From the NCBI RefSeq assembly GCF_030064675.1, contig NZ_CP116413.1, positions 2,636,001-2,700,000 on the forward strand: DNA of 64,000 nt, written 5' to 3'. The notes under the pieces are model-generated. The model had not been told where the DNA came from and made no database searches. It saw only the letters and a list, made by a program, of their open reading frames with translations. How positions within the stretch are numbered: position 1 is the stretch's first letter; every line of letters starts with the position of its first letter. This DNA comes from Crossiella sp. CA-258035 (GTDB lineage: Bacteria; Actinomycetota; Actinomycetes; Mycobacteriales; Pseudonocardiaceae). This document shows positions 7,979 to 19,256 of this stretch, one piece after another. A program made the position numbers and the translations under genes.

Positions 7979-9598
7979 ATGATCGAGAGTCAGTCCACAT
8001 TGGACGGATTTGTGCCGTGGCCTGCCGAGTACGGCCGGCGCTACCGCGAAGCGGGCTACTGGCAGGACGTCCCGCTCGGCGAGCTGCTCCGCGACTGGAG
8101 CGCCCGCTACGCCGACCGGACCGCGCTGGTGGACGGCGAACGGCGGATCAGCTACGCCCAGCTCGACGCCGCCGCCGACCGGATGGCCGCGGGCCTGCGC
8201 GAGATCGGTGTGCGGCAAGGCGATCGGGTGGTCGTCCAGCTGCCCAACGTCGCCGAGTTCGTCGTGCTGCTCTTCGCCCTGCTCCGCCTCGGCGCGGTCC
8301 CCGCCCTGACCCTGCCCGCGCACCGCTCGCACGAGATCGGCCACCTGGCCGAGCTCTCCGAAGCGGTCGCCTACGTCATCCCGGAGACCTTCGGCGGCTT
8401 CGACTACCGCGGCCTGGCCCGCGAGGTGGTCGCCAGGGTCCCGTCGGTCAAGCACGTCCTGGTCCTGGGCGACCCCGGCGGCACCGGCACCGCACTGTCC
8501 ACAGTGGACGCGGAGCCGACGGGCCTGCCCGAGGTCAACCCCGCCGACGTGGCCGTCCTGCTGGTCTCCGGCGGCACCACCGGCCTGCCCAAGCTGATTC
8601 CCAGGACCCACAACGACTACGCCTTCAACGCCCGCGCCAGCGCCGAGGTCTGCGAGCTCACCCAGGACGACGTCTACCTGGTCGCCCTCCCGGTGGCGCA
8701 CAACTTCCCCCTGGCCTGCCCCGGCGTGCTCGGCATCCTGGGCGTCGGCGGCACCGCGGTCTTCCTCTCCGACCCCAGCCCTGACAACGCCTTCCCGCTG
8801 ATCGAGCGGTCCGGGGCCACGGTCACCGCCCTGGTGCCCCCACTGGCCATGCTGTGGGGCCAGGCCACGGAATGGGAGGACGGCGACCTGTCCAGCCTCC
8901 GCCTGCTCCAGGTAGGCGGCGCCAAACTCGCCCCCGAACCCGCCCGAGAACTCCCCGGCCAGCTCAACTGCGCCCTGCAACAGGTCTTCGGCATGGCCGA
9001 GGGCCTGCTCAACTACACCCGCGCCAACGACACCGAGGACCTGGTCACCACCACCCAGGGCCGCCCCCTGTGCGCCGACGACGAGCTCCGCGTGGTCGAC
9101 CCCAACGGCAACGACGTCCCCCAGGGCGAAACCGGCGAACTCCTGGTCCGGGGCCCGTACACCATCCGCGGCTACTACCGAGCGGCCAAGCACAACGAAA
9201 CCGCCATCACCCCGGACGGCTACTACCGCAGCGGTGACCTGGTCCGCCAGCTCCCCACCGGCCACCTGATCGTCACCGGCCGGGTCAAGGAGGTCATCAA
9301 CCGAGGCGGCGAGAACGTCTCAGCCGAGGAACTGGAAGAACACCTGCTGGCCCACGCCAACATCCGCCAGGTCGCGGTGATCCCGGTCCCAGACGACATG
9401 CTCGGCGAACGAGTCTGCGCCGTCATCGTCCCCGAAGGCGACGCACCGGCCCTGCGCGACCTGAAGACCTTCCTCACGGCCCGCGGCCTGGCCCAGTACA
9501 AGCTGCCCGACCTGCTGGAACTGGTCGAGGACCTGCCGCGAACCGCCGTCGGCAAGATCGACAAGCGCGAGGTGGCAGCCAGGCTGACCAAGGCCTGA
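7979..9598 (+). CDS. Aryl acid-AMP ligase, predicted salicylate-specific (EntE/DhbE/MbtA family)
   Basis: A 539-residue stand-alone adenylating enzyme that activates an aryl acid and loads the ArCP domain of the upstream NRPS. The ATG at 7979 is preceded by GAGGA at the end of the NRPS gene; an in-frame ATG 48 bases earlier lies inside the NRPS and is rejected. Seen: SGGTTGLPK P-loop, YYRSGDL, a C-terminal domain with TGRVKEVINRGGENVS, and the catalytic lysine region GKIDKRE. In the pocket motif HNFPLAC the His is residue 241, Asn 242 and Cys 247. In DhbE the position of this Cys is Ser240, which contacts the 3-hydroxyl of 2,3-dihydroxybenzoate; salicylate enzymes such as MbtA, PchD and YbtE carry Cys. 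Salicylate is therefore predicted. No salicylate synthase lies in the window. Confidence 0.92.
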   Translation: MIESQSTLDGFVPWPAEYGRRYREAGYWQDVPLGELLRDWSARYADRTALVDGERRISYAQLDAAADRMAAGLREIGVRQGDRVVVQLPNVAEFVVLLFALLRLGAVPALTLPAHRSHEIGHLAELSEAVAYVIPETFGGFDYRGLAREVVARVPSVKHVLVLGDPGGTGTALSTVDAEPTGLPEVNPADVAVLLVSGGTTGLPKLIPRTHNDYAFNARASAEVCELTQDDVYLVALPVAHNFPLACPGVLGILGVGGTAVFLSDPSPDNAFPLIERSGATVTALVPPLAMLWGQATEWEDGDLSSLRLLQVGGAKLAPEPARELPGQLNCALQQVFGMAEGLLNYTRANDTEDLVTTTQGRPLCADDELRVVDPNGNDVPQGETGELLVRGPYTIRGYYRAAKHNETAITPDGYYRSGDLVRQLPTGHLIVTGRVKEVINRGGENVSAEELEEHLLAHANIRQVAVIPVPDDMLGERVCAVIVPEGDAPALRDLKTFLTARGLAQYKLPDLLELVEDLPRTAVGKIDKREVAARLTKA

Positions 9599-9641: not shown

Positions 9642-9674
9642 CAACCCAGGCGACGGGTTCGCAACAGGGAGCTA

Positions 9675-10295
9675 GCGACCAAGAACCAGCGACGGGCTGG
9701 CTTTTCGAAAACTTGTCCGAAGTCTTGAGGTTCCCCATGCCCGTCAACCTGGAGACATCGCACCACATCCCAGCGAGCAGACGCTCACAGGCGCCGCCGC
9801 CAAGGCCACGCCACGCAACGGCGGCTGCTCGCTGGGATGTGGTTCGATTTCGGAAGGTTGACGGGCATGGGGAACCTCAAGACCCGCCTGCGTCTTGGCC
9901 TTTGACTTTGATTTTCCCCCCCATGCTTTGATCTCTGCCCGTCCGGCGAGGACGCTCTTGACTGTCGCTTGAAAACCCAAGACCAAGATCAAAAGAATGT
10001 CCTCGCCGGACGGGCAGACCCCCGGAGGGTGGGGGCAAGTCAAACCCCGGTTGAGCAGGTTGCGGGGCGGGGTTTGTGTTGCCGACTCAACACCCAGCGT
10101 GCTCGCGACCCTCTCGTCTTCTCCGCACGACCTTCCGACAGCAAACCACACCTCCCCACCCGGCCCCCGTCACGTTCCGAGGCTAGGGCGGCGGCAGGTT
10201 GCAGGGGCCGGGCGGGGAGGTGTGGTCAGCAGTCTCCAGGCCGTACGGAGAAGACGAGAGGCCCGCTTTGTGGGTTTTCACCCAACCCCGGGCTG
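9675..10295. repeat. Composite triple-hairpin repeat element, copy 1
   Basis: About 610 bp of non-coding DNA repeated at 18653-19250. Three nested inverted-repeat units. A: outer arms 9724-9750 / 9855-9881 (27 of 27 paired), inner arms 9762-9780 / 9825-9843 (19 of 19). B: 9934-9953 / 9999-10018 (20 of 20). C: outer 10110-10125 / 10246-10261 (16 of 16), inner 10145-10167 / 10204-10226 (22 of 23). Unit C's inner hairpin belongs to the same family as unit A's but in reverse orientation. It fills the gap between the ligase terminator and the siderophore permease operon. Open frames inside it occur on both strands and follow the palindromes, so I call no gene. No transposase or target duplication was seen. 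Function unknown. Confidence 0.9.
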
Positions 10296-10383
10296 CGCCC
10301 GAACACCGGTCGCTCCGCGTGTCCTGATCGACACCCGACCGCAACCGCTCACCCGACCCCCGTCGTTGAGCCGCCAGCCTCCT

Positions 10384-10402
10384 TTAGTTAGCCTCACCTT
10401 AG
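10384..10402 (+). promoter_or_regulatory. DtxR/IdeR-type iron box upstream of siderophore permease operon
   Basis: TTAGTTAGCCTCACCTTAG; the 19-base register one base to the left (starting 10383) matches the iron box consensus at about 15 of 19 positions. It lies about 33 bp upstream of the permease start, where a bound repressor would block transcription. This links uptake to the same iron control as the NRPS genes. Confidence 0.75.
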
Positions 10403-10434
10403 TTGAGGTGCGCGAATGACGGAGGGGGCAAGCG

Positions 10435-11442
10435 GTGGTCTCGGCTGGTCGCGTCACCCGCAGTGCGGGGCTGGTCGTGGCTGTGGGCTTGCTGGTGCTG
10501 GTGTGCCTGCTCAGCATCGCCGTCGGCGCCAGGAGCATTCCGCTGCCCGAGGTCTGGCAGGCGCTCTGGACCCGGGACGGCTCCACCGAGTCCCTGGTCA
10601 TCCACGACCTGCGCATCCCGCGCACCCTGATCGGCCTCGGCGTCGGCGCCGCGCTGGGGCTGGCCGGCGCGCTCATGCAGGCGCTGACCCGCAACCCGCT
10701 CGCCGATCCCGGCCTGCTGGGGGTCAACCTCGGGGCCTCGGCGGCCGTGGTGATCGGGATCGGCTGGTTCGGGGTGGGCAGCGCCGCCGGGTATGTCTGG
10801 TTCGCCTTCGCTGGGGCGGCGGTGGCCTCGGTGCTGGTGTTCCTGCTCGGATCGGCGGGGCGGCGGGCGGCGACGCCGGAGCGGCTGGTGCTCTCCGGGG
10901 TGGCCATCAGCGCGGTGCTCAGCGCGTTCATCTCCACGCTGATCCTGTTGGACAGCAAGACTTTCGACCAGTTCCGCTACTGGGTGGTGGGCGCGCTCGC
11001 CGGGCGCAAGATGGAGACCGTCTACGAGCTGGCTCCTTTCCTGTTGGTCGGGATCGTGCTCGCGCTGCTGCTCTCCCGCGCGCTGAACGCGGTCGCGCTG
11101 GGCGAGGAAGCGGGACGGGCGCTGGGAGCCAACGTCGGGCGGACCCGGTTCCTCGGCGCCATCGCGGTGACCCTGCTGTGCGGGGCGGCCACCGCGGCTG
11201 CCGGGCCGATCGGGTTCGTCGGGCTGGCCGTGCCGCACATGGTGCGCGGGTTCACCGGACCCGACCAGCGCTGGCTGCTGCCCTACTCCACGATCCTCGC
11301 GCCCGTGCTGCTGCTCTCCGCCGACATCCTTGGCCGGGTGCTGATCGCGCCGGGCGAACTGGAGGTCGGCGTGGTGACCGCCTTCCTCGGCGCGCCCGTG
11401 TTCATCCTGCTGGTGCGGCGCCGGAAGCTGGTGGCGGCATGA
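10435..11442 (+). CDS. Ferric-siderophore ABC transporter permease (FecCD/FepD family)
   Basis: A 335-residue polytopic membrane protein of the BtuC/FecCD family, half of the channel importing the ferric siderophore across the cytoplasmic membrane. The GTG at 10435 follows GGAGGGGG by about six bases; an ATG at 10416 is in another frame. Seen: hydrophobic N-terminal helix, LRIPRTLIGLGVGAALGLAG, the loop LTRNPLADPGLLGVN (family signature RNPLADPxxLG), GPIGFVGLAVPHMVR that contacts the ATPase, and a hydrophobic C-terminus. It overlaps the next gene by an ATGA tetramer and is probably translationally coupled to it. The iron box lies just upstream. Confidence 0.93.
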   Translation: MVSAGRVTRSAGLVVAVGLLVLVCLLSIAVGARSIPLPEVWQALWTRDGSTESLVIHDLRIPRTLIGLGVGAALGLAGALMQALTRNPLADPGLLGVNLGASAAVVIGIGWFGVGSAAGYVWFAFAGAAVASVLVFLLGSAGRRAATPERLVLSGVAISAVLSAFISTLILLDSKTFDQFRYWVVGALAGRKMETVYELAPFLLVGIVLALLLSRALNAVALGEEAGRALGANVGRTRFLGAIAVTLLCGAATAAAGPIGFVGLAVPHMVRGFTGPDQRWLLPYSTILAPVLLLSADILGRVLIAPGELEVGVVTAFLGAPVFILLVRRRKLVAA

Positions 11443-12491
11443 CCCAGCTGGCCACCCGCCCCCGCCCGCGCCGGGTGCTGCGCAGCCGCGGCGGCTCCGT
11501 CTCGCTCCGGCTGCACGCGCGCAGCACCGCGGCCACCATCGGCCTGGTGCTGGCCATCGCGGTGATCGGCGTGCTCACGCTGACCATCGGCGAGTACGAG
11601 CTGACCGTCAGCCAGGTGCTCTCCGCGCTCGCCGGGGAGGGCGGCCGGGCCGCGCAGTACGTGATCACCGAGTTCCGGCTGCCGCGCTGGCTGACCGGCC
11701 TGCTGGTCGGCGCGGCGCTCGCGGTCAGTGGCGCGATCATGCAGAACCTGGCCCGCAACCCCTTGGGCAGCCCCGACTTCATCGGCTTCACCACCGGCGC
11801 GGCCACCGGCGGCATCCTGATGGTGCTGGCCGGGGCGGGCGCGGCGCAGCTGGCCTTCGGCGCGATCGCGGGCGGGGTGCTCACCGCGCTGGCCATGTAC
11901 CTGCTGGCCTTCACCAAGGGCGTGCACGGCTCCCGGCTGGTGCTGGTCGGCGTCGGCGTCAACGCGATCCTGATCGCGGTCAACTCCTACCTGATCAGCC
12001 GCGCCAGCCTGCGCGACGCCACCGCCGCGCAAGCCTGGCTCACCGGCAGCCTCAACTCCCGGGGCTGGGAGCACGTGCTGCCGGTGACGGTCGCGCTGGC
12101 CCTGCTGCTGCCGGTCGCCTTCGCCTACGGCCGCAGGCTTTCCCTGCTGGAGATGGGCGACGAGGCGGCCAGCGCGCTCGGCGTGCCGGTGCAGCGCAGC
12201 CGGGCCATCCTCATGATCACCAGCGTCGCGCTGGCCGGGGTCGCGGTCGCCTCGGCCGGGCCGATCGGGTTCGTGGCGCTGATGGCGCCGCAGCTGACCC
12301 GGCGGCTCACCAAGGCCGCCTCCGCGGTATTGCTGCCGACCGCGCTGATGGGCGCGTTCGTGGTCTCCCTCAGCGACTTCGCGGCGCAACGGTTCTTCTC
12401 CCCGGTGGCGGTGCCGGTCGGGGTCATGACGGCGGCGGTCGGCGGGGTCTACCTCGCCTGGCTGCTGGCCACCGAATGGCGAGGAAGGTAG
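11439..12491 (+). CDS. Ferric-siderophore ABC transporter permease (FecCD/FepG family)
   Basis: Second FecCD permease subunit, 350 residues, pairing with the preceding protein. The ATG at 11439 overlaps the previous stop. Family signatures: FRLPRWLTGLLVGAALAVSG, NLARNPLGSPDFIGFTTGAA, and GPIGFVALMAPQLTRRL at the ATPase contact. About nine to ten hydrophobic segments follow a basic N-terminus. The ATPase gene starts eight bases after the stop. The frame stays open far upstream across the FepD-like gene, but that is a high-GC artefact, not a fusion. Confidence 0.93.
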   Translation: MTQLATRPRPRRVLRSRGGSVSLRLHARSTAATIGLVLAIAVIGVLTLTIGEYELTVSQVLSALAGEGGRAAQYVITEFRLPRWLTGLLVGAALAVSGAIMQNLARNPLGSPDFIGFTTGAATGGILMVLAGAGAAQLAFGAIAGGVLTALAMYLLAFTKGVHGSRLVLVGVGVNAILIAVNSYLISRASLRDATAAQAWLTGSLNSRGWEHVLPVTVALALLLPVAFAYGRRLSLLEMGDEAASALGVPVQRSRAILMITSVALAGVAVASAGPIGFVALMAPQLTRRLTKAASAVLLPTALMGAFVVSLSDFAAQRFFSPVAVPVGVMTAAVGGVYLAWLLATEWRGR

Positions 12492-12499
12492 ATCGGACC

Positions 12500-13330
12500 A
12501 TGGCTGTGGAACGCCCCGAACCCCGGCTGCACGCCGAGGACCTCACCCTGGCCTACGAGGCCCGGATCGTGGCCGAGGGACTCGGCGTGCGCATCCCGGA
12601 CGGGTCCTTCACCGTGATCGTCGGCCCGAACGCCTGCGGCAAGTCCACCTTGCTCAAGGCGCTGTCCCGGATCCTCAAGCCCAAGGCCGGATCCGTGCTG
12701 CTCGACGGCGCCGCGATCTCCTCCTACCCGGCCAAGGAGGTGGCGCGGCGGCTCGGCCTGCTGCCGCAGACCTCCATCGCGCCCAACGGGATCACCGTGG
12801 CCGACCTGGTCGCCCGCGGCCGCTACCCGCACCAGCGGCTGCTGCGCCAGTGGTCGCCGGAGGACGAGCTCGCGGTGTCCGAGGCACTGCGGCTGACCGG
12901 GGTGGACGAGCTGGCCGAGCGGTTCGTGGACGAGCTCTCCGGCGGGCAGCGGCAGCGGGTCTGGCTGGCCATGGTGCTGGCCCAGCAGACGCCGATCCTG
13001 CTGCTGGACGAGCCGACCACGTTCCTGGACATCGCGCACCAGGTCGAGGTGCTGGACCTGTGCGCGGACCTGCACGAGGACCGGGGGCACACCCTGGTCG
13101 CGGTGCTGCACGACCTCAACCACGCCTGCCGCTACGCCACCCACCTGATCGCCATGCGCGGCGGCCGGATCGTGGCCCAGGGCGACCCCAGGGAGATCGT
13201 CACCGCCGAGCTGGTGCGGGAGGTCTTCGGCCTGGCCTGCCGGGTCATCCCGTGCCCGGAGACCGGCACCCCGCTGGTGGTGCCCGCCCGCCGGGTCCGC
13301 GAGCAGACCCCGGTCACCGCCGTCGGCTGA
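12500..13330 (+). CDS. Ferric-siderophore ABC transporter ATPase (FepC family)
   Basis: A 276-residue cytoplasmic ATPase powering the FepD/FepG-like channel. The ATG at 12500 follows GAGGAAGG. Seen: Walker A GPNACGKST (about residues 41-49, the Ala-Cys variant usual in FepC), the Q-loop region LLPQTSI, ABC signature LSGGQRQR, Walker B ILLLDEPTTFLD and the switch His in VLHDLNHA. It closes the three-gene import operon. No FepB-type binding protein follows; the next gene encodes a peptide-type binding lipoprotein. Confidence 0.95.
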   Translation: MAVERPEPRLHAEDLTLAYEARIVAEGLGVRIPDGSFTVIVGPNACGKSTLLKALSRILKPKAGSVLLDGAAISSYPAKEVARRLGLLPQTSIAPNGITVADLVARGRYPHQRLLRQWSPEDELAVSEALRLTGVDELAERFVDELSGGQRQRVWLAMVLAQQTPILLLDEPTTFLDIAHQVEVLDLCADLHEDRGHTLVAVLHDLNHACRYATHLIAMRGGRIVAQGDPREIVTAELVREVFGLACRVIPCPETGTPLVVPARRVREQTPVTAVG

Positions 13331-13432
13331 TCCAGTGTGGACGGTGGGTCATTTGGGGCCCAAGGATTCGGTCCCAAAGACCACAGTGCCAAGCCTTGCC
13401 GCGCGGGCAGCGGTTTTGTCAGCATCGGCACC

Positions 13433-14773
13433 ATGACCCGCCGCCCGGCCGCCGCGCTCCTGCTCGCGGGCGCGCTGCTGGCCGGGTGCGGCGCGGACCG
13501 GCCCGGACTGGTGCAGCTGCGCTACAGCGCGGAAACCCCGGCCGCGGCGGCCGGGATCGCCGGATTCACCTGGGCCGTGCCGCGCGAACCGCGTTCGCTG
13601 GACTGGCCGCACGGCGGCGAGGTGCCTGAGGACACCGTCACCGCGAACCTGTGCGAGCCGCTGGCCGCCCTCGCCGCCGAGGTCGGCACCCCGGAGCCGC
13701 TGACCCACGTCTACCGGCTGCGCCCCGGCGTCCGCCTGCACGACGGCACCACGCTGACCGCCGCGGACGCGGTGGCCAGCCTGCGCCGTTCGGCCGACCG
13801 GGCCTCCGGCGGCAGGCTGTCCCGCGGCTTCGACAAGGTCGCCAGCATCACCGAGACCGGCCCGCTGGAGGTCACCCTCCGGCTGCGCGCCCCCGACCCG
13901 CTGCTGAGCCGCACCCTGGCCGGGCGCGCCGGCACGGTGACCAGCCGCGAACACCTCGCCGCCGGATCACCGTCCACTTCGGACGGTTGCAGTGGACCGT
14001 TCCGGCTCGCCGAGTGGGCGCCCGGCTCGCACATCCTGCTGACCCGCTTCGACGGCTACTGGAACCCGGCGGCCCGCGCGCTGGCCGGTGCCGTCCGGTT
14101 CACCTTCGCCAGCGGTCCGGCGCTGGTCAACGGCCTGCTGGACGCCTCGATCGAGGGCAGCTACCTGGACAGTCCCACCGCCGTGGTCCGGCTCAGCCGC
14201 AGCCCCGGCGGCCGGGTCCACTTCGGTCACGGCAACGCCGTCGCCGCACTGGACCCGGTGCCCGGCGGCGCGCTGGACAACCCGCGCCGCCGCCGCGCGC
14301 TGGCCCTGGCACTGGACCGCGAGGCCATCGCCCGCGAGGGGTTCGCCGGACTGGCCCAGCCCGCCGACCCACCGGTGCCCGAGGGCGGCGGCACCATCCT
14401 GGCCGCGGGGCCCAGCCCCCGGCTGCCGCTGACCGTGCTGGACGAGGCCCGCCGGCTCATCGCCGGGACCGAGCCGCTCGGCCAGGACCTGGTGATCCAG
14501 GGCGGCGGGGGAGTGGAGGCGGTCGCGATCGCGGCCGAGGTGCTCGCCGCCTGCGTGCGCATCGGCCTGCCCGCCCGCATTGGTTCGGACCAGCCGGACC
14601 TGGCGCTGGTCAGCGGCGCGCCCACGCCCGCCGATCCGGCCTGGACCAGGTGGATCCCGCTGGTCCGGCTGCCGAACACGCTGTACCTGAACCACCGCAT
14701 CACTGGGGCGCCCACCGGTGCGGGGTACCTCGACCAGGCCTGGGCGGCCCGGATCGGCCGCAGCGGGAACTGA
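13433..14773 (+). CDS. ABC substrate-binding lipoprotein, SBP_bac_5 (peptide/OppA) family
   Basis: A 446-residue extracellular binding lipoprotein. The ATG at 13433 opens a short signal with lipobox LLAGC, so the mature Cys is about residue 18. Family 5 features: PREPRSLDW near the N-terminus, the LRPGVRLHDGTTLTAADAV element (typically FHDG..ltAeDV), and RRRALALALDREAIA. Members usually bind peptides or nickel and are about 500 residues or more, so this one is short. It sits 102 bases after the ATPase of a FecCD-type importer that has no cognate binding protein here, so it may deliver the peptidic siderophore; that is inference. It could instead be independent, as no dipeptide permease is adjacent. 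Confidence 0.85.
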   Translation: MTRRPAAALLLAGALLAGCGADRPGLVQLRYSAETPAAAAGIAGFTWAVPREPRSLDWPHGGEVPEDTVTANLCEPLAALAAEVGTPEPLTHVYRLRPGVRLHDGTTLTAADAVASLRRSADRASGGRLSRGFDKVASITETGPLEVTLRLRAPDPLLSRTLAGRAGTVTSREHLAAGSPSTSDGCSGPFRLAEWAPGSHILLTRFDGYWNPAARALAGAVRFTFASGPALVNGLLDASIEGSYLDSPTAVVRLSRSPGGRVHFGHGNAVAALDPVPGGALDNPRRRRALALALDREAIAREGFAGLAQPADPPVPEGGGTILAAGPSPRLPLTVLDEARRLIAGTEPLGQDLVIQGGGGVEAVAIAAEVLAACVRIGLPARIGSDQPDLALVSGAPTPADPAWTRWIPLVRLPNTLYLNHRITGAPTGAGYLDQAWAARIGRSGN

Positions 14774-14780
14774 GTGCGGG

Positions 14781-15158
14781 TCAGTGCAACGCGGCCCGCA
14801 CGTCGTCGAACAGTTCGAAGGTGCGGAGCAGCCCGGTGGCGGCCAGCGGCCGGGTGACCGAGCGGGCGGTGGAGACCAGACGTAGCTTCACCGAGCCGGC
14901 CGTGGCGGCGCGTTCGAACTCCACCAGCGCGGCGAGTCCGCACGAGGCGAGGAAGGACACTCCGCTAAGGTCGAGGACCAGTAGCTTCGGCGCGGTGGCT
15001 AGTTGTTCGTCCAGCGCGGCACGCAGACTGTCCACAGTCAGCAGGTCGACCTCGCCCACCGCGGTGAGCACCACCGCAGCACCCGTGGTGCGCGAGGACA
15101 GCCGCAACATCTGCTGGCTGTCCTGCGGCTCGCCGGGTTCGTGCGTAGCTGGAATCAC
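14781..15158 (-). CDS. STAS-domain anti-sigma factor antagonist
   Basis: A 125-residue single STAS domain (SpoIIAA/RsbV type). Seen: the beta-strand VLTAVGEVDLLTVDSL near the N-terminus and LVLDLSGVSFLASCGLAAL, where the Ser of FLASCGL is the expected phosphorylation site. Such proteins bind an anti-sigma kinase when unphosphorylated, freeing a sigma factor, and are reset by PP2C phosphatases; a PP2C-like gene lies at 17307. A GTG at 15158 was chosen; a TTG at 15194 is also in frame and neither has a strong ribosome site. It converges with the binding-protein gene, with eight bases between stops. Confidence 0.85.
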   Translation of the reverse strand: MIPATHEPGEPQDSQQMLRLSSRTTGAAVVLTAVGEVDLLTVDSLRAALDEQLATAPKLLVLDLSGVSFLASCGLAALVEFERAATAGSVKLRLVSTARSVTRPLAATGLLRTFELFDDVRAALH

Positions 15159-15174
15159 CCGCTCACCGTAACCC

Positions 15175-15765
15175 CTATGTTTGCTGAGCGACAACTAATG
15201 CGCGTCCGTTGAGCGACGTGTCCTCGATCGCCCGGACATAACAGTCAGCCACCTCAGCGGCGGGCACCCCCCGATCCGCCACTCCCAGCGTCTCCCGGAC
15301 CCATCCCGGCGCGACCAGGTTGACCCGCAACCCACGCGGCAGTTCCGCCGCGGCCGCCGCCACGAACCCGGCCAGCCCCGCGTTGATCAACGCGCCGAAA
15401 CTGGCCCCTGGCAACGGTTCGGTGAACGTGCCGCCGGTCAACGTGACCGACCCGCCGTCCCGCAACCGGGGGATCGCGGCGCGCAGCAACCGCACCTGCC
15501 CGAGCAGTTTCCCCTCCAGCCCAGTGGTGAACTCCGCCTCGTCACCTTCGTGCACCAGGGTCAGCCCGCCGCTGGCCGCACAGCACACCACCGCGTCCAG
15601 CTCCGCCACTCCATCGAGCAACGCCACCACCGACTCCGCCCGCGTCAGATCCACCACAGGTTCACTCGACCGGGAAGCCCCCACCACTGAATGCCCCCGC
15701 GCCCGCAAGGCCCGCACCACCGCCGTCCCGATGGTCCCGGACGCCCCCACCACCAACACCTTCAC
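15175..15765 (-). CDS. Short-chain dehydrogenase-like protein lacking the Tyr-Lys pair
   Basis: A 196-residue Rossmann protein with the dinucleotide motif VVGASGTIG at the extreme N-terminus, an Asp/Thr-containing second strand (VDLTRAE), CCAASGG in place of NNAG, and the C-terminal LRVNLVAPGWVRETL. At the catalytic YxxxK position the sequence is GALINAGLAG, so Tyr and Lys are replaced by Gly and Asn; classical SDR oxidoreduction is not expected. It is short for the family (about 250). The GTG at 15765 overlaps a TGA ending a short upstream open tail. A MmyB-type regulator diverges 97 bases away and may control it. Confidence 0.8.
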   Translation of the reverse strand: MKVLVVGASGTIGTAVVRALRARGHSVVGASRSSEPVVDLTRAESVVALLDGVAELDAVVCCAASGGLTLVHEGDEAEFTTGLEGKLLGQVRLLRAAIPRLRDGGSVTLTGGTFTEPLPGASFGALINAGLAGFVAAAAAELPRGLRVNLVAPGWVRETLGVADRGVPAAEVADCYVRAIEDTSLNGRALVVAQQT

Positions 15766-15862
15766 CAGACCTCCAGCACCGACTCGCCGAACAACACGTC
15801 CTCGATCGTGGCCGCCGACGGGTGGGCGTGCCTGCCCCTGTCAGGTGCAGGATGCTGAAGGC

Positions 15863-16723
15863 ATGGACACGGTGCTGGGCGAGTTCCTGCGGTCACGCCG
15901 GGCGCGGCTGACGCCGGCCGCCGCCGGGCTCACCGACTACGGTGACCGGCGGCGCGTGCCGGGCTTGCGCCGCGAGGAACTGGCCCAGCTGGCCGGGGTG
16001 AGCGTCGGCTACTACACCCGCCTGGAACAGGGCCTGAACCACAACGCCTCCGAGTCGGTGCTGGACGCGCTGGCCGCCGCGCTGCGCCTGGACGCCGACG
16101 AACGCGCCCACCTGCACACCCTGGCCCGCCCCAGGCCCAAGGCCGGCCGCAGGCGCGGCCCGGAACACCTCCAGCCCCACCTGCGCAGCCTGGTGAGCAC
16201 AGTCAACCTGCCCGCGCTGATCCTGGGCCGGCACACCCACGTGCTGGCCTGGAACCCGCTGGCGCACACCCTGCTGGCCGACCACCTGGACTTCCACGCC
16301 CCCGAGGACCCGGCCACCCGCCCCAACTGGGCCAGGCTGTTCTTCCTGGACCCGCGCGTGCGCGAGGTGTTCGGCGACTGGGCGGACAAGGCTGAGGACA
16401 CGGTGGCCGACCTACGGCAGATCGCCGGGCGGGACCGCGGCGACCCCGGACTGGCCAGGCTGGTCGGCGAGCTGACCCGGTGCAGTCCCGAGTTCGCCGC
16501 GCTGTGGTCCGGCCATCCGGTGCGCGGCTGCGCCAGCCACACCAGGGAGTACCGGCACCCGCGGGTCGGCTCGCTAGTCCTGGCCGACGACCTGCTGACC
16601 CTGCCGGACACCGACGGTCAGCGGCTGGTGCTCTTCCACGCCGAGCCCGGGTCTGCCTCGGCGGCCGCGCTGGCGCTGCTCAGCGGCACTGCCCGGCACG
16701 CCGGGGAGGTGCTTGCGATATGA
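15863..16723 (+). CDS. Helix-turn-helix transcriptional regulator, MmyB-type
   Basis: A 286-residue regulator. N-terminal Xre-like HTH (about residues 1-85) with the characteristic RRVPGLRREELAQLAGVSVG and YYTRLEQG; C-terminal ligand-binding domain of the MmyB type (about 105-280) with LGRHTHVLAWNPLA, the NWARLFFLDP element and a closing LLLF-like segment. MmyB-type domains are thought to bind small ligands such as fatty acids. The ATG at 15863 is just after GCTGAAGGC. These regulators usually control a divergent oxidoreductase, which fits the SDR-like gene on the other strand. Confidence 0.9.
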   Translation: MDTVLGEFLRSRRARLTPAAAGLTDYGDRRRVPGLRREELAQLAGVSVGYYTRLEQGLNHNASESVLDALAAALRLDADERAHLHTLARPRPKAGRRRGPEHLQPHLRSLVSTVNLPALILGRHTHVLAWNPLAHTLLADHLDFHAPEDPATRPNWARLFFLDPRVREVFGDWADKAEDTVADLRQIAGRDRGDPGLARLVGELTRCSPEFAALWSGHPVRGCASHTREYRHPRVGSLVLADDLLTLPDTDGQRLVLFHAEPGSASAAALALLSGTARHAGEVLAI

Positions 16724-16804
16724 CAAATGCTTAAGGTTAGAATCCTTGCCTCATGGCAAAGACCTGGCTGGGTTGGCTCGCGGAGGGTGGGAATGCGATG
16801 GCTG

Positions 16805-17308
16805 CTAGGCCGTGTCCTCCTGCCGCGCTTCCAGCCCGCCGGATGCCGCGTGGAAGCTGGCGAGCCCGTTCAGCAGCGCGGTCTGCTCAGCCGAGCTCAT
16901 GCTGCCCAGCACCCGTCCCAGCTCGGCCTGTCGCGCGCCCCGCAGCTGCTCCAGCAGCCGGGAACCGTCCTTGGTGAGTTCCAGCGACACCTCTCGCCGA
17001 TCCGCCAGGTTCGATCGCCGCGCCAGCAGCCCCGCGGCCTGGAGCCGGTCGCACAACCGGCTCGCCGAGGACGGGATCGCGCCGAGCTCCTCGGCCAGCT
17101 TGCCCAGCGTGATCGACTGGTGCCGCTCGACGACGACCAGCGCGCCCAGCTGCGAGGCCGATACCTTCGGGTGGACGCTCTCCGCGGCACGCCCCCACAC
17201 GATGACCAGTGTTTCCGCCGCAGCCTCCACCGCGGCCGCAAGCTCGGCCGGATGGTGACTGTGGTTCCGAACCAGGGCAGTACTCCACTCAGGCAGGTGT
17301 CGTGACAT
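16805..17308 (-). CDS. MarR-family transcriptional regulator
   Basis: A 167-residue winged-helix regulator. Seen: HTH segment LGKLAEELGAIPSSASRLCD, the wing with ADRREVSLELTKDG (DxR motif of MarR wings), and amphipathic N- and C-terminal helices for dimerisation. The ATG at 17308 overlaps the ATG of the phosphatase gene on the other strand (palindrome CATG at 17306-17309); longer in-frame starts exist but would run into the phosphatase gene. The overlap suggests a shared promoter zone, or that one start lies further inside. Its 3' end faces the MmyB-type gene. Confidence 0.88.
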   Translation of the reverse strand: MSRHLPEWSTALVRNHSHHPAELAAAVEAAAETLVIVWGRAAESVHPKVSASQLGALVVVERHQSITLGKLAEELGAIPSSASRLCDRLQAAGLLARRSNLADRREVSLELTKDGSRLLEQLRGARQAELGRVLGSMSSAEQTALLNGLASFHAASGGLEARQEDTA

Positions 17309-18458
17309 GCGAACCAACCGTCTCGCCTTCGCTGAGCGTGCCATGCTCTGCGCCCCGGCGCACGATCTGGGTGATGTCCTGGCAGACATTCTCCACACTG
17401 AGTATGGAGCCAGCAGCACTGAGGTGTTCCTCGCCGACTACCGGATGCTCGCCCTACAGCCGCTGCGCGCGGAGAACCCGGCCCCGATGGCCATCGCGGG
17501 CACCCCGGCCGGCCTGGCCTTCGGCGGCCAGGAGCCGGTGCGCCGCACCGAGGGCGCCGAGGAGGCCTGGTACCTGCCGATGACGGTGCGTGGCGACCGC
17601 TTCGGCGTGCTGCGGGTCACCTTCGCCGACCCGTCCGACGACAACACCGCCGAGGAGCTGACCGACCTGGCGCACGCCGCGGCCCAGGCCTTCCAGGTCG
17701 CCGAGGCCGCCACCGACCGCTTCCGCCTGGCCCGCCGAGCCGAACGCCTGACCCTGGCCGCCGAGATCCAGTGGCAGCTCCTCCCCGGCCGGGGCCTGGA
17801 CCGCGAGGAGTTCAGCCTGGCAGGCCAGCTCGAACCGGCCTACGCCGTCCGCGGCGACAACTTCGACTGGACCGCCGACGCCGACGCCCTGACCATCGCC
17901 GTCACCAACGGCATGGGCGAAAGCGTCGACGCAGCGCTGCTGACCAGCCTGGCCATCAACGCCCTGCGCAACGCCAGAAGAGCAGGCGTCAGCCTCCCCG
18001 ACCAGGCGGCCCTGGCCGACCAGGCCATCTGGTCCCAGTACGGCGGCCGCCAGCACGTCTCCACCCTGCTGCTCCGCCTGGACATCGCCGACGGCCGGGT
18101 CACCGCCATCGACGCGGGCTCCCCGAGGATCTGGCGCCTCCGCGAAGGCGAGGTCGAACCGGTCCACCTGGAGCCGCAACTCCCGCTGGGCATGTTCGAC
18201 AGCACCGTCTACATCGAACAGGAGTTCAACGTCCGCCCCGGCGACCGCCTGTTCCTGCTCAGCGACGGCATCTTCGAGTCCATCTACGAAGGCCGCCGCT
18301 ACGCCGACAACCTGGAACGCATGCTCCGCGCCACCGCCAGCCTCCCCCCAGGCGAGGCGATCCGGGCGCTGCTGCACGACCTGCGCGCCTTTTGCCAGGA
18401 CCAGTACCTGGACGACGACGCGGTGGGTGTGTGCCTGGACTGGACGGGGAAGGGCTAG
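17307..18458 (+). CDS. PP2C/SpoIIE-like protein phosphatase with altered metal site
   Basis: A 383-residue protein: N-terminal GAF-like region (about 1-140), then a SpoIIE-type PP2C domain (about 160-380). Metal-site motifs: RGDNFDW (first Asp kept), TNGMGES where GDVxGHG is usual (Asp replaced by Asn), SDGIFES (Asp kept) and DDDAVGVCLDW at the end. Asn at the second site may weaken catalysis, though I recall actinobacterial paralogs with the same TNGMGE motif. Family members dephosphorylate anti-anti-sigma proteins; the STAS protein at 14781 is a candidate partner. The start ATG overlaps the MarR start and only a weak AGGCAGG lies upstream. Copy 2 of the composite repeat follows. Confidence 0.82.
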   Translation: MRTNRLAFAERAMLCAPAHDLGDVLADILHTEYGASSTEVFLADYRMLALQPLRAENPAPMAIAGTPAGLAFGGQEPVRRTEGAEEAWYLPMTVRGDRFGVLRVTFADPSDDNTAEELTDLAHAAAQAFQVAEAATDRFRLARRAERLTLAAEIQWQLLPGRGLDREEFSLAGQLEPAYAVRGDNFDWTADADALTIAVTNGMGESVDAALLTSLAINALRNARRAGVSLPDQAALADQAIWSQYGGRQHVSTLLLRLDIADGRVTAIDAGSPRIWRLREGEVEPVHLEPQLPLGMFDSTVYIEQEFNVRPGDRLFLLSDGIFESIYEGRRYADNLERMLRATASLPPGEAIRALLHDLRAFCQDQYLDDDAVGVCLDWTGKG

Positions 18459-18547
18459 CGACCCGGGGCGAAGCGAAGCCCGCGCACCGACGGTCGGGGC
18501 GGCGGTCGAGCACCGGCGGTCGGGTTGGTGACTGAGGATGAGTGAAC

Positions 18548-18673
18548 GGGGTTGCGACCAGGGACGAGCGGTCGGGGTTGCGACCAGGGACGAGTGGCCG
18601 GGGTTCGCGACCAAGGACCAGCGGTCGAGGTTCGCGACCAAGGACCGGGGCTCGCGACAAGGAACCAGCGACG
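18548..18673. repeat. Tandem ~26-bp repeat array at left flank of composite repeat copy 2
   Basis: About 4.7 degenerate units of 25-27 bp with the core GCGACCAGGGACGAGCGGTC, starting near 18548, 18575, 18601, 18628 and 18649. The same unit occurs about 1.7 times at the left flank of copy 1 (about 9655-9695), so copy number differs between the elements. No coding function is likely. Confidence 0.75.
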
Positions 18674-19250
18674 GGGTGGCTTTTCAAACGTCCACCGAGT
18701 CTTGAGGTTCCCCATGCCCGTCAACCTGGAGAGATCACACCACATCCCAGCGAGCAGACGCTCACAGCAACCGCCGCCAACACAAAGCAGCGTGACGGCG
18801 GCTGCTCGCTGGGATGTGGTTTGATTTCGGAAGGTTGACGGGCATGGGGAACCTCAAGACTTTGCCTGCGTCTCTGCCTTTGATTTTCCCCCCCCATGCT
18901 TTGATCTCTGCCCGTCCGGCGAGGACGCTCTTGATCTTCGCTTGTAAACCCCAAGATCAAAAGAATGTCCTCGCCGGACGGGCAGACCACCGGAGGGGTG
19001 TGACAAGTCAAAAGCCGGTTGAGCAGGTTGCGGGGCGGGGCAGGCTGCCGACTCAAGACCCAGCGTGCTCGCGACCCTCTCGTCTTCTCCGCACGACCTT
19101 CCGACAGCGAACCACATCCCACCGAGCAGCCGCCGTCACGTTCCGAGGCTTTGGCGGCGGCGCCTGTGAGCGTCTGCTCGGCGGGATGCGGTGCGCGGTC
19201 TCCAGGCCGTACGGAGAAGACGAGAGGCCCGCTTTGTGGGTTTCACCCCG
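18653..19250. repeat. Composite triple-hairpin repeat element, copy 2
   Basis: Second copy of the element at 9675-10295, same orientation. Unit A: outer arms 18701-18727 / 18832-18858 (27 of 27), inner 18739-18757 / 18802-18820 (19 of 19). Unit B: 18907-18926 / 18967-18986 (20 of 20). Unit C: outer 19076-19091 / 19212-19227 (16 of 16), inner 19111-19129 / 19174-19192 (17 of 19). Arms of A and B match copy 1 exactly while loops differ. In the inner C stem, sequence has changed at six positions on both arms, keeping pairing. It fills the space between the phosphatase 3' end and the response-regulator 3' end. Open frames across it are not believable genes. Confidence 0.9.
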
Positions 19251-19256
19251 GATTCG

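Follow-up and report, generated by a model that had tools for sequence, protein, structure and literature searches.

Bacterial genomes often carry repeats at the ends of genes, and it has long been asked whether a role as RNA, one as single-stranded DNA (ssDNA) or no function at all lies behind their retention. In this study, we analysed a repeat of this kind from Crossiella sp. CA-258035 (Pseudonocardiaceae), two copies of which lie in a window of 64,000 nt (contig NZ_CP116413.1, positions 2,636,001 to 2,700,000). Here the question is testable through dozens of copies, many inner-stem alleles, a wobble signal showing the selected strand, and the trading of hairpins at the same site. Among the closest described systems, ERIC, RUP and NEMIS/Correia are bacterial repeats with RNA hairpins that resemble miniature inverted-repeat transposable elements (MITEs). 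The Crossiella element is like them non-autonomous, intergenic and palindromic, with seemingly short insertion targets; it differs in having no terminal inverted repeats or transposase that we could find, in its much larger size, in its bipartite build and in belonging to another bacterial family. With HEARO it shares the character of a multi-copy, structured RNA-like element without a gene of its own, but it has no Rfam match and no recurrent nuclease or transposase gene alongside. Repetitive extragenic palindromes (REPs) are described in the excerpted text of PMC3733652 as sequences of 20–40 bp that carry a GTAG or CGTC tag and have stems of 5–13 bp (8–9 bp in the CGTC families). As that text describes them, REP, BIME (bacterial interspersed mosaic element) and REPIN (REP doublet) repeats resemble our element in their many copies and in forming inverted dimers near 3′ ends between convergent or same-direction genes; the element differs in its 150–162 nt hairpins with internal loops, its 4 bp core stem, its copies of about 600 bp and its strand-specific pairing. 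It does not have the form of a tagged (GTAG or CGTC) palindrome of 20–40 bp. Its inverted dimers do lie at gene 3′ ends (of 25 sites in its own genome, 13 are convergent, 10 tandem and 2 divergent), and it shows the covariation with one-strand wobble of a structured RNA. It resembles REPs in placement and spread, but we do not class it among them. Our best explanation, to which we give about an even chance, is that it is a multi-copy, non-autonomous, mobile intergenic element of the Pseudonocardiaceae, composed of strand-folding modules, spreading in a REP/BIME-like way and acting as RNA at transcript 3′ ends. A preliminary description of this DNA had proposed a large REP/BIME-like family, a structured RNA or a mobile passenger, and each of these finds some support below.

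A full Crossiella copy is non-coding, about 600 bp long, and consists of two modules facing each other. Read 5′ to 3′, a module comprises an outer stem, then an internal loop whose sequence hardly varies, a variable inner stem, a bulge and end loop, a spacer, the core and a T-rich stretch. The core, CTGCCCGTCCGGCGAGGAC, is nearly invariant, follows each 150–162 nt nested hairpin and contains a small stem of 4 bp with a GGCGA loop (GTCC-GGCGA-GGAC). Module A folds on the plus strand and is 162 nt in all 15 own-genome copies matched, while module C folds on the minus strand and is 150 nt in 18 of 19; cross-matches in the own-genome search identify the inner parts of A and C as inverted relatives. 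The two copies in the window are laid out as follows (positions are those of the window).

9672–10287 (borders approximate), no strand assigned: element copy 1, placed by sequence, between two plus-strand genes
9722–9883, folding strand plus: copy 1, module A hairpin, 162 nt
9722–9749 and 9856–9883: copy 1, module A outer arms, 28 bp (exact search)
9762–9780 and 9825–9843: copy 1, module A inner arms, 19 bp (exact search)
9934–9953, plus: copy 1, module A core (left B arm), 20 bp
9999–10018, read on minus: copy 1, module C core (right B arm), 20 bp
10111–10260, folding strand minus: copy 1, module C hairpin, 150 nt
10111–10125 and 10246–10260: copy 1, module C outer arms, 15 bp exact
10145–10167 and 10204–10226: copy 1, module C inner stem
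18459–19256, no strand assigned: copy 2 with flanking spacer, 798 bp separating the stop codons of two convergent genes
18699–18860, plus: copy 2, module A hairpin
18699–18726 and 18833–18860: copy 2, module A outer arms, 28 bp (exact search)
18739–18757 and 18802–18820: copy 2, module A inner arms, 19 bp (exact search)
18907–18926, plus: copy 2, module A core (B arm), 20 bp
18967–18986, read on minus: copy 2, module C core (B arm), 20 bp
19077–19226, minus: copy 2, module C hairpin
19077–19091 and 19212–19226: copy 2, module C outer arms, 15 bp exact
19111–19133 and 19170–19192: copy 2, module C inner stem

Exact arm searches confirmed the preliminary description in that the same structure stands at both places and that the A arms, the B arms and the outer C arms are identical between the copies. 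Its lengths for the inner A arms (19 bp) and for B (20 bp) hold, while the outer A arms measure 28 bp instead of 27 and the outer C arms 15 bp exact instead of 16. It had also listed arm positions 7, 9, 15, 16, 18 and 22 of the inner C stem; these indeed differ in both arms from one copy to the other, and they remain paired. The stem as a whole is imperfect, with one mismatch in copy 1 (position 14) and three in copy 2 (4, 11 and 20). The layout of three nested hairpins stands for A and C, which are related and oppositely oriented, but B is better read as two facing cores because other genera carry single cores. For modules taken from the window together with their cores, the folding z-score was −12.05 for A and −10.44 for C, and none of 200 shuffles folded as well in either case.

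The modules are not uniform. The left module differs in some copies (e.g., locus L015), and the core stem is GGCC-GGCGA-GGCC in one of the two cores of many copies from two sister species (genomes G002 and G001) and GCCC-GGCGA-GGGC at one core of genome G003 (L034), with the loop kept in both variants. Copies without a hairpin (L090, L022, L033, L038 and L042) have apparently lost it by deletion between short direct repeats, one in the outer arm and one before the core. An echo of the outer arm before the core, closer to the module's own arm than to 90% of foreign arms in 14 of 40 modules, is suggested for the Crossiella A modules and is absent from the C modules.

Pairing was examined in two alignments (A1 and A2) of 61 C and 54 A modules, all distinct copies matching patterns with conserved arm pieces, a choice that under-represents degenerate copies. 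In C, 99.3% of cells pair, compared with 40–49% when the partners are slid by 1–3 columns; in A the values are 99.9% and 34–46%. Changes on both sides occur at 17 of 52 pairs in C and 13 of 43 in A. The covariation score, a check that the preliminary description had proposed for aligned copies, is 0.305 in C (0.130 when shuffled) and 0.312 in A (0.118), and none of 500 shuffles reaches it in either module. The plain count of pairs with a both-side change is reached by 76 (C) and 15 (A) of 500 shuffles, and the number of further pair types in C by 20 of 500. When arms are taken from different copies, pairing at the variable pairs falls to 77.6% in C and 73.9% in A, against 98.6% and 99.8% for a module's own arms; for these pairs, a reading on the opposite strand gives 81.0% and 92.6%.

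The mismatches that remain are strongly biased. In a hairpin selected as a double strand, G.T and A.C should be equally frequent, each being the other read on the opposite strand. The ratio of G.T to A.C cells is 269:2 in C and 71:1 in A, and 27 columns contain only G.T compared with one that contains only A.C. The form under selection is therefore single-stranded. In a mismatch-neutral scan of 214 modules of all genera (32 low-scoring modules of 246 having been dropped), the ratio was 310:42, the A.C count being recomputed from the rows since the total of 51 included one type twice. Split by group, with 28 low-scoring stretches dropped, it was 64:25 in Saccharothrix; in the other loci with a single core it was 43:15 for the upstream hairpin and 17:42 for the downstream hairpin, indicating opposite folding strands for the two, as in Crossiella. 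The folding energy of single C sequences also depends on the strand (mean −124.5 versus −108.1 kcal/mol). The stronger evidence for selection on structure lies in the strand-specific wobble and the loss of pairing across the arms of different copies, not in the double changes. The single-stranded functional form is most likely RNA, since the folding strand appears to be the strand of the transcript off the adjacent gene in most layouts.

From the double changes the preliminary description had concluded that structure or palindrome identity is selected. The changes are real, but six independent compensations are not supported, because both-side changes come in blocks between two strains. We compared the source genome (G000; 9.17 Mb, one contig) at the same sites with a second genome of the species (G060, Crossiella sp. 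SN42 by its loci), using 22 modules (13 C and 9 A) from 22 hand-listed locus pairs with both members aligned. Between flanks about 94% identical, both-side and one-side changes numbered 43 and 32 in C and 28 and 16 in A. The both-side changes fell in 8 of the 13 C and 7 of the 9 A comparisons, 4–7 of them together in 13 of those 15, with none in the other 7 of the 22. Such clustering looks as if copies swap their inner hairpins as wholes, gene conversion being the probable route. There are 32 inner-stem alleles in C and 12 in A. Where G000 and G002 have an element at the same site, the two copies are only 76–79% identical (L007/L171 and L011/L170), which is below the identity within a genome; copies thus follow their own genome, that is, they evolve in concert.

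Far from being a two-copy duplication, as first described, the element is abundant. With copy 1 as the query, 83 match rows at 26 separate places were found in its own genome, 12 of them near the whole query length, and the 11 other full-length copies are 83–93% identical to copy 1 (40 of 77 candidates were scored in the own-genome search). The 26 places leave two empty arcs of 2.77 and 2.44 Mb on the chromosome, and none of 20,000 random placements had two such gaps. Another short repeat of intergenic DNA (ACGGCCAAC...GTAC type) adjoins elements and matches across them, at the right flank of L004 (2121–2252) and in the flanks of many G002 copies. Allowing two mismatches, a threshold that may admit single chance matches and that overlooks diverged cores, the core was found in 34 of 120 sampled Pseudonocardiaceae genomes and 19 of 46 genera, the source genome included. 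With the same tolerance it was found in none of 147 other Actinomycetes genomes, the source genome being the sole match in the class-wide sample of 148; a reversed-pattern control gave zero in the listed genomes of both searches. The element thus appears, as far as detected, in Pseudonocardiaceae only.

An exact core scan with one genome per species returned 85 stretches, of which the 80 with titles belong to nine genera: Amycolatopsis, Saccharothrix, Crossiella, Saccharopolyspora, Kutzneria, Prauserella, Saccharomonospora, Solihabitans and Pseudonocardia (a metagenome-assembled genome). Beyond the genus the full DNA query gave short matches only, mostly to the core. In Amycolatopsis and in genomes G137 and G090, a single core stands between two different large hairpins, and in Saccharothrix the modules are turned round, with the cores outermost. 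Because the core is nearly invariant across nine named genera, a trans-acting partner would be implied. No exact core was found in the viral contigs scanned, no Rfam family scored above its gathering threshold in the window (six loci searched at a relaxed E-value gave only sub-threshold chance matches), and the searched open-licence literature yielded no description of the element.

The element sits preferentially at gene 3′ ends. With genes called by a simple codon-usage script, convergent sites in the source genome exceed divergent ones (13:2, p 0.007); a circular chromosome has as many gaps of one kind as of the other. The corresponding ratio was 17:3 among 32 cores of other genera with both neighbours called and, per core, 12:0 in G002 and 6:2 in G001. 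A same-direction gene ends 199–239 bp before the core in 19 of 51 cores from outside Crossiella and Saccharothrix, and copies take up almost the whole intergenic gap.

At the copy 2 site the flanking stop codons abut in both sister species and are about 5 bases apart in G003, compared with 798 bp in the source genome; the G060 copy is shortened and lacks the A hairpin. The copy 1 site is empty in the sister species, holds a copy with an inner deletion in G060 and has other sequence in G003, with no element in the stretch read. The empty window sites in the sister species indicate that the element moves. Among the loci fetched, 22 of the 26 own loci are filled at the same site in G060, with flanks about 92–97% identical; two of the remaining four, L006 and L013, were checked and lack the element there. 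From these comparisons, the element is gained at sites and its hairpins are lost again. Some sites are old: L003 is filled also in G002 and G003, and one site is common to three Amycolatopsis species (L065, L091 and L100). Differently built Saccharothrix and Amycolatopsis elements lie beside the same gene run (L072, L119 and L105), an arrangement that reflects an insertion hot spot or else a site of great age. Several modules of other genera and a lone module of the source genome (core at 1684101), among them those at L036, L086, L223 and L098/L117/L123, lie near genes resembling tyrosine integrases or genes of actinomycete integrative elements, a possible vehicle for modules.

According to our best explanation, the unit would be a module folding as one strand, with a large nested hairpin, a spacer and the conserved core with its GGCGA-loop stem. 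As the Crossiella modules face each other, a transcript running off either neighbouring gene would enter one of them in the folding orientation. The folded form would be RNA in transcript 3′ ends, where it may affect 3′-end formation or decay, and the element may spread as a REP/BIME-like passenger by means of an enzyme, for which our searches gave no candidate. The data show the family, its copy number and layout, the strand-specific pairing, the placement at gene 3′ ends and the empty sites of the sister species; function, be it 3′-end formation, decay or mobility, is inferred from them. Several observations weigh against this explanation. The paired structure used for the G.T and A.C counts came from the same sense-strand alignments; further pair types in A do not exceed shuffles (500 of 500 reach them); the single-sequence folding energy of A is alike on both strands (mean −100.6 versus −100.4 kcal/mol); and G137 and G090 show no bias, with few mismatches (2 G.T versus 5 A.C in their upstream hairpins together). 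The window copies have U-run terminators no more often than chance predicts (copy 1 has one site, with 0.9 in shuffles, and copy 2 has none, with 0.8 in shuffles), L014 follows what by eye is an ordinary-looking terminator, and with the cores outermost in Saccharothrix the transcript of the near gene meets one module on the wrong strand first. These last three points indicate that the role goes beyond simple termination.

It is tentatively conceivable, although we consider it rather doubtful, that the copying or retention of this family-specific mobile element requires a large structured RNA recognized in trans by a conserved host factor, for which the invariant core and the fixed internal loops would be the putative binding site. 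If true, this would define an RNA-based class of bacterial repeats that is new and belongs with neither the REPs nor the MITEs.

An ssDNA mobile element of the REP or IS200/IS605 kind, whose hairpins are recognized as ssDNA by an HUH-type enzyme and are kept for mobility and not for an RNA role, seems unlikely. Strand-specific pairing would fit ssDNA as well, the empty sites indicate movement, and REPs show the same pattern of 3′ ends and convergent genes in the excerpted text of PMC3733652. However, no tyrosine (Y1) transposase was found in G000, G060 or G003; Y1 matches do occur in G001 and G002, but without a core in their vicinity, the sole match within three mismatches lying inside a coding frame. 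No Y1 transposase of the RAYT kind flanked by repeats, as in the GTAG families, was found, and for CGTC families, too, the excerpts of PMC3733652 give the transposase as not known. Moreover, the two modules fold on opposite strands, so that of the two hairpins on a single ssDNA strand one would be good and the other wobble-poor. In other genera, clustering of 471 script-called proteins from near cores gave 10 clusters present in at least 3 species, none of them transposase-like, and no recurrent nuclease or transposase gene was found beside copies.

We consider it distinctly improbable that the element is chiefly a bidirectional terminator or 3′-end stabilizer that became repetitive, with mobility incidental. 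The excess of convergent over divergent sites and the nearly filled gene gaps would be expected of it, and at the L006 site G002 has, by eye, a short terminator-like hairpin in place of the element. The lack of U-run terminators beyond chance, the ordinary-looking terminator before L014 and the reversed module order in Saccharothrix argue against it, and the conservation of the core and the fixed internal loops exceed what termination needs.

A classical MITE of a DDE transposon, inserting at a short TA or CTAG target and carrying palindromes without function, is very improbable. The empty site at copy 2 is clean, 5 of 15 A-type copies have TAGCGA close to their left border, compared with none of 44,000 background positions, and CTAG stands at the abutting stops of the copy 2 site in G001 and G002. 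Yet no clear terminal inverted repeat was found, a target duplication, of the TA type, would be compatible with the sequence at the copy 2 site only, where the ends are not fixed, and a MITE gives no reason for the excess of G.T over A.C. As to an IS630-like partner, the genome has a single such gene, with unrelated ends and no core, other transposase families not having been sought; nor did plasmid or phage records match the element.

Least probable is a neutral correction of one arm by the other through template switching, which would keep arms matched without selection and would suit the block-wise both-side changes but should treat both strands alike, whereas the remaining mismatches are G.T and not A.C, and should erase the asymmetric internal loops, whereas the A and C hairpin lengths are all but fixed.

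The genes next to copy 1 are as follows.

Ending at 9598, plus: AMP-ligase-like gene, upstream neighbour of copy 1
Plus: FecCD-type permease gene, downstream neighbour of copy 1

The sequence TTAGTTAGCCTCACCTTAG at 10384–10402, 5′ of the permease gene, resembles what we take to be an iron-regulator box of the IdeR/DmdR type. A promoter-like match lies at 9969–9998 in copy 1 (one found, 0.0 in shuffles), and copy 2 has none. Directly to the left of copy 2 (18554–18645), a short unit of approximately GCGACCA(A/G)GGAC occurs four times, at 18554, 18580, 18607 and 18634.

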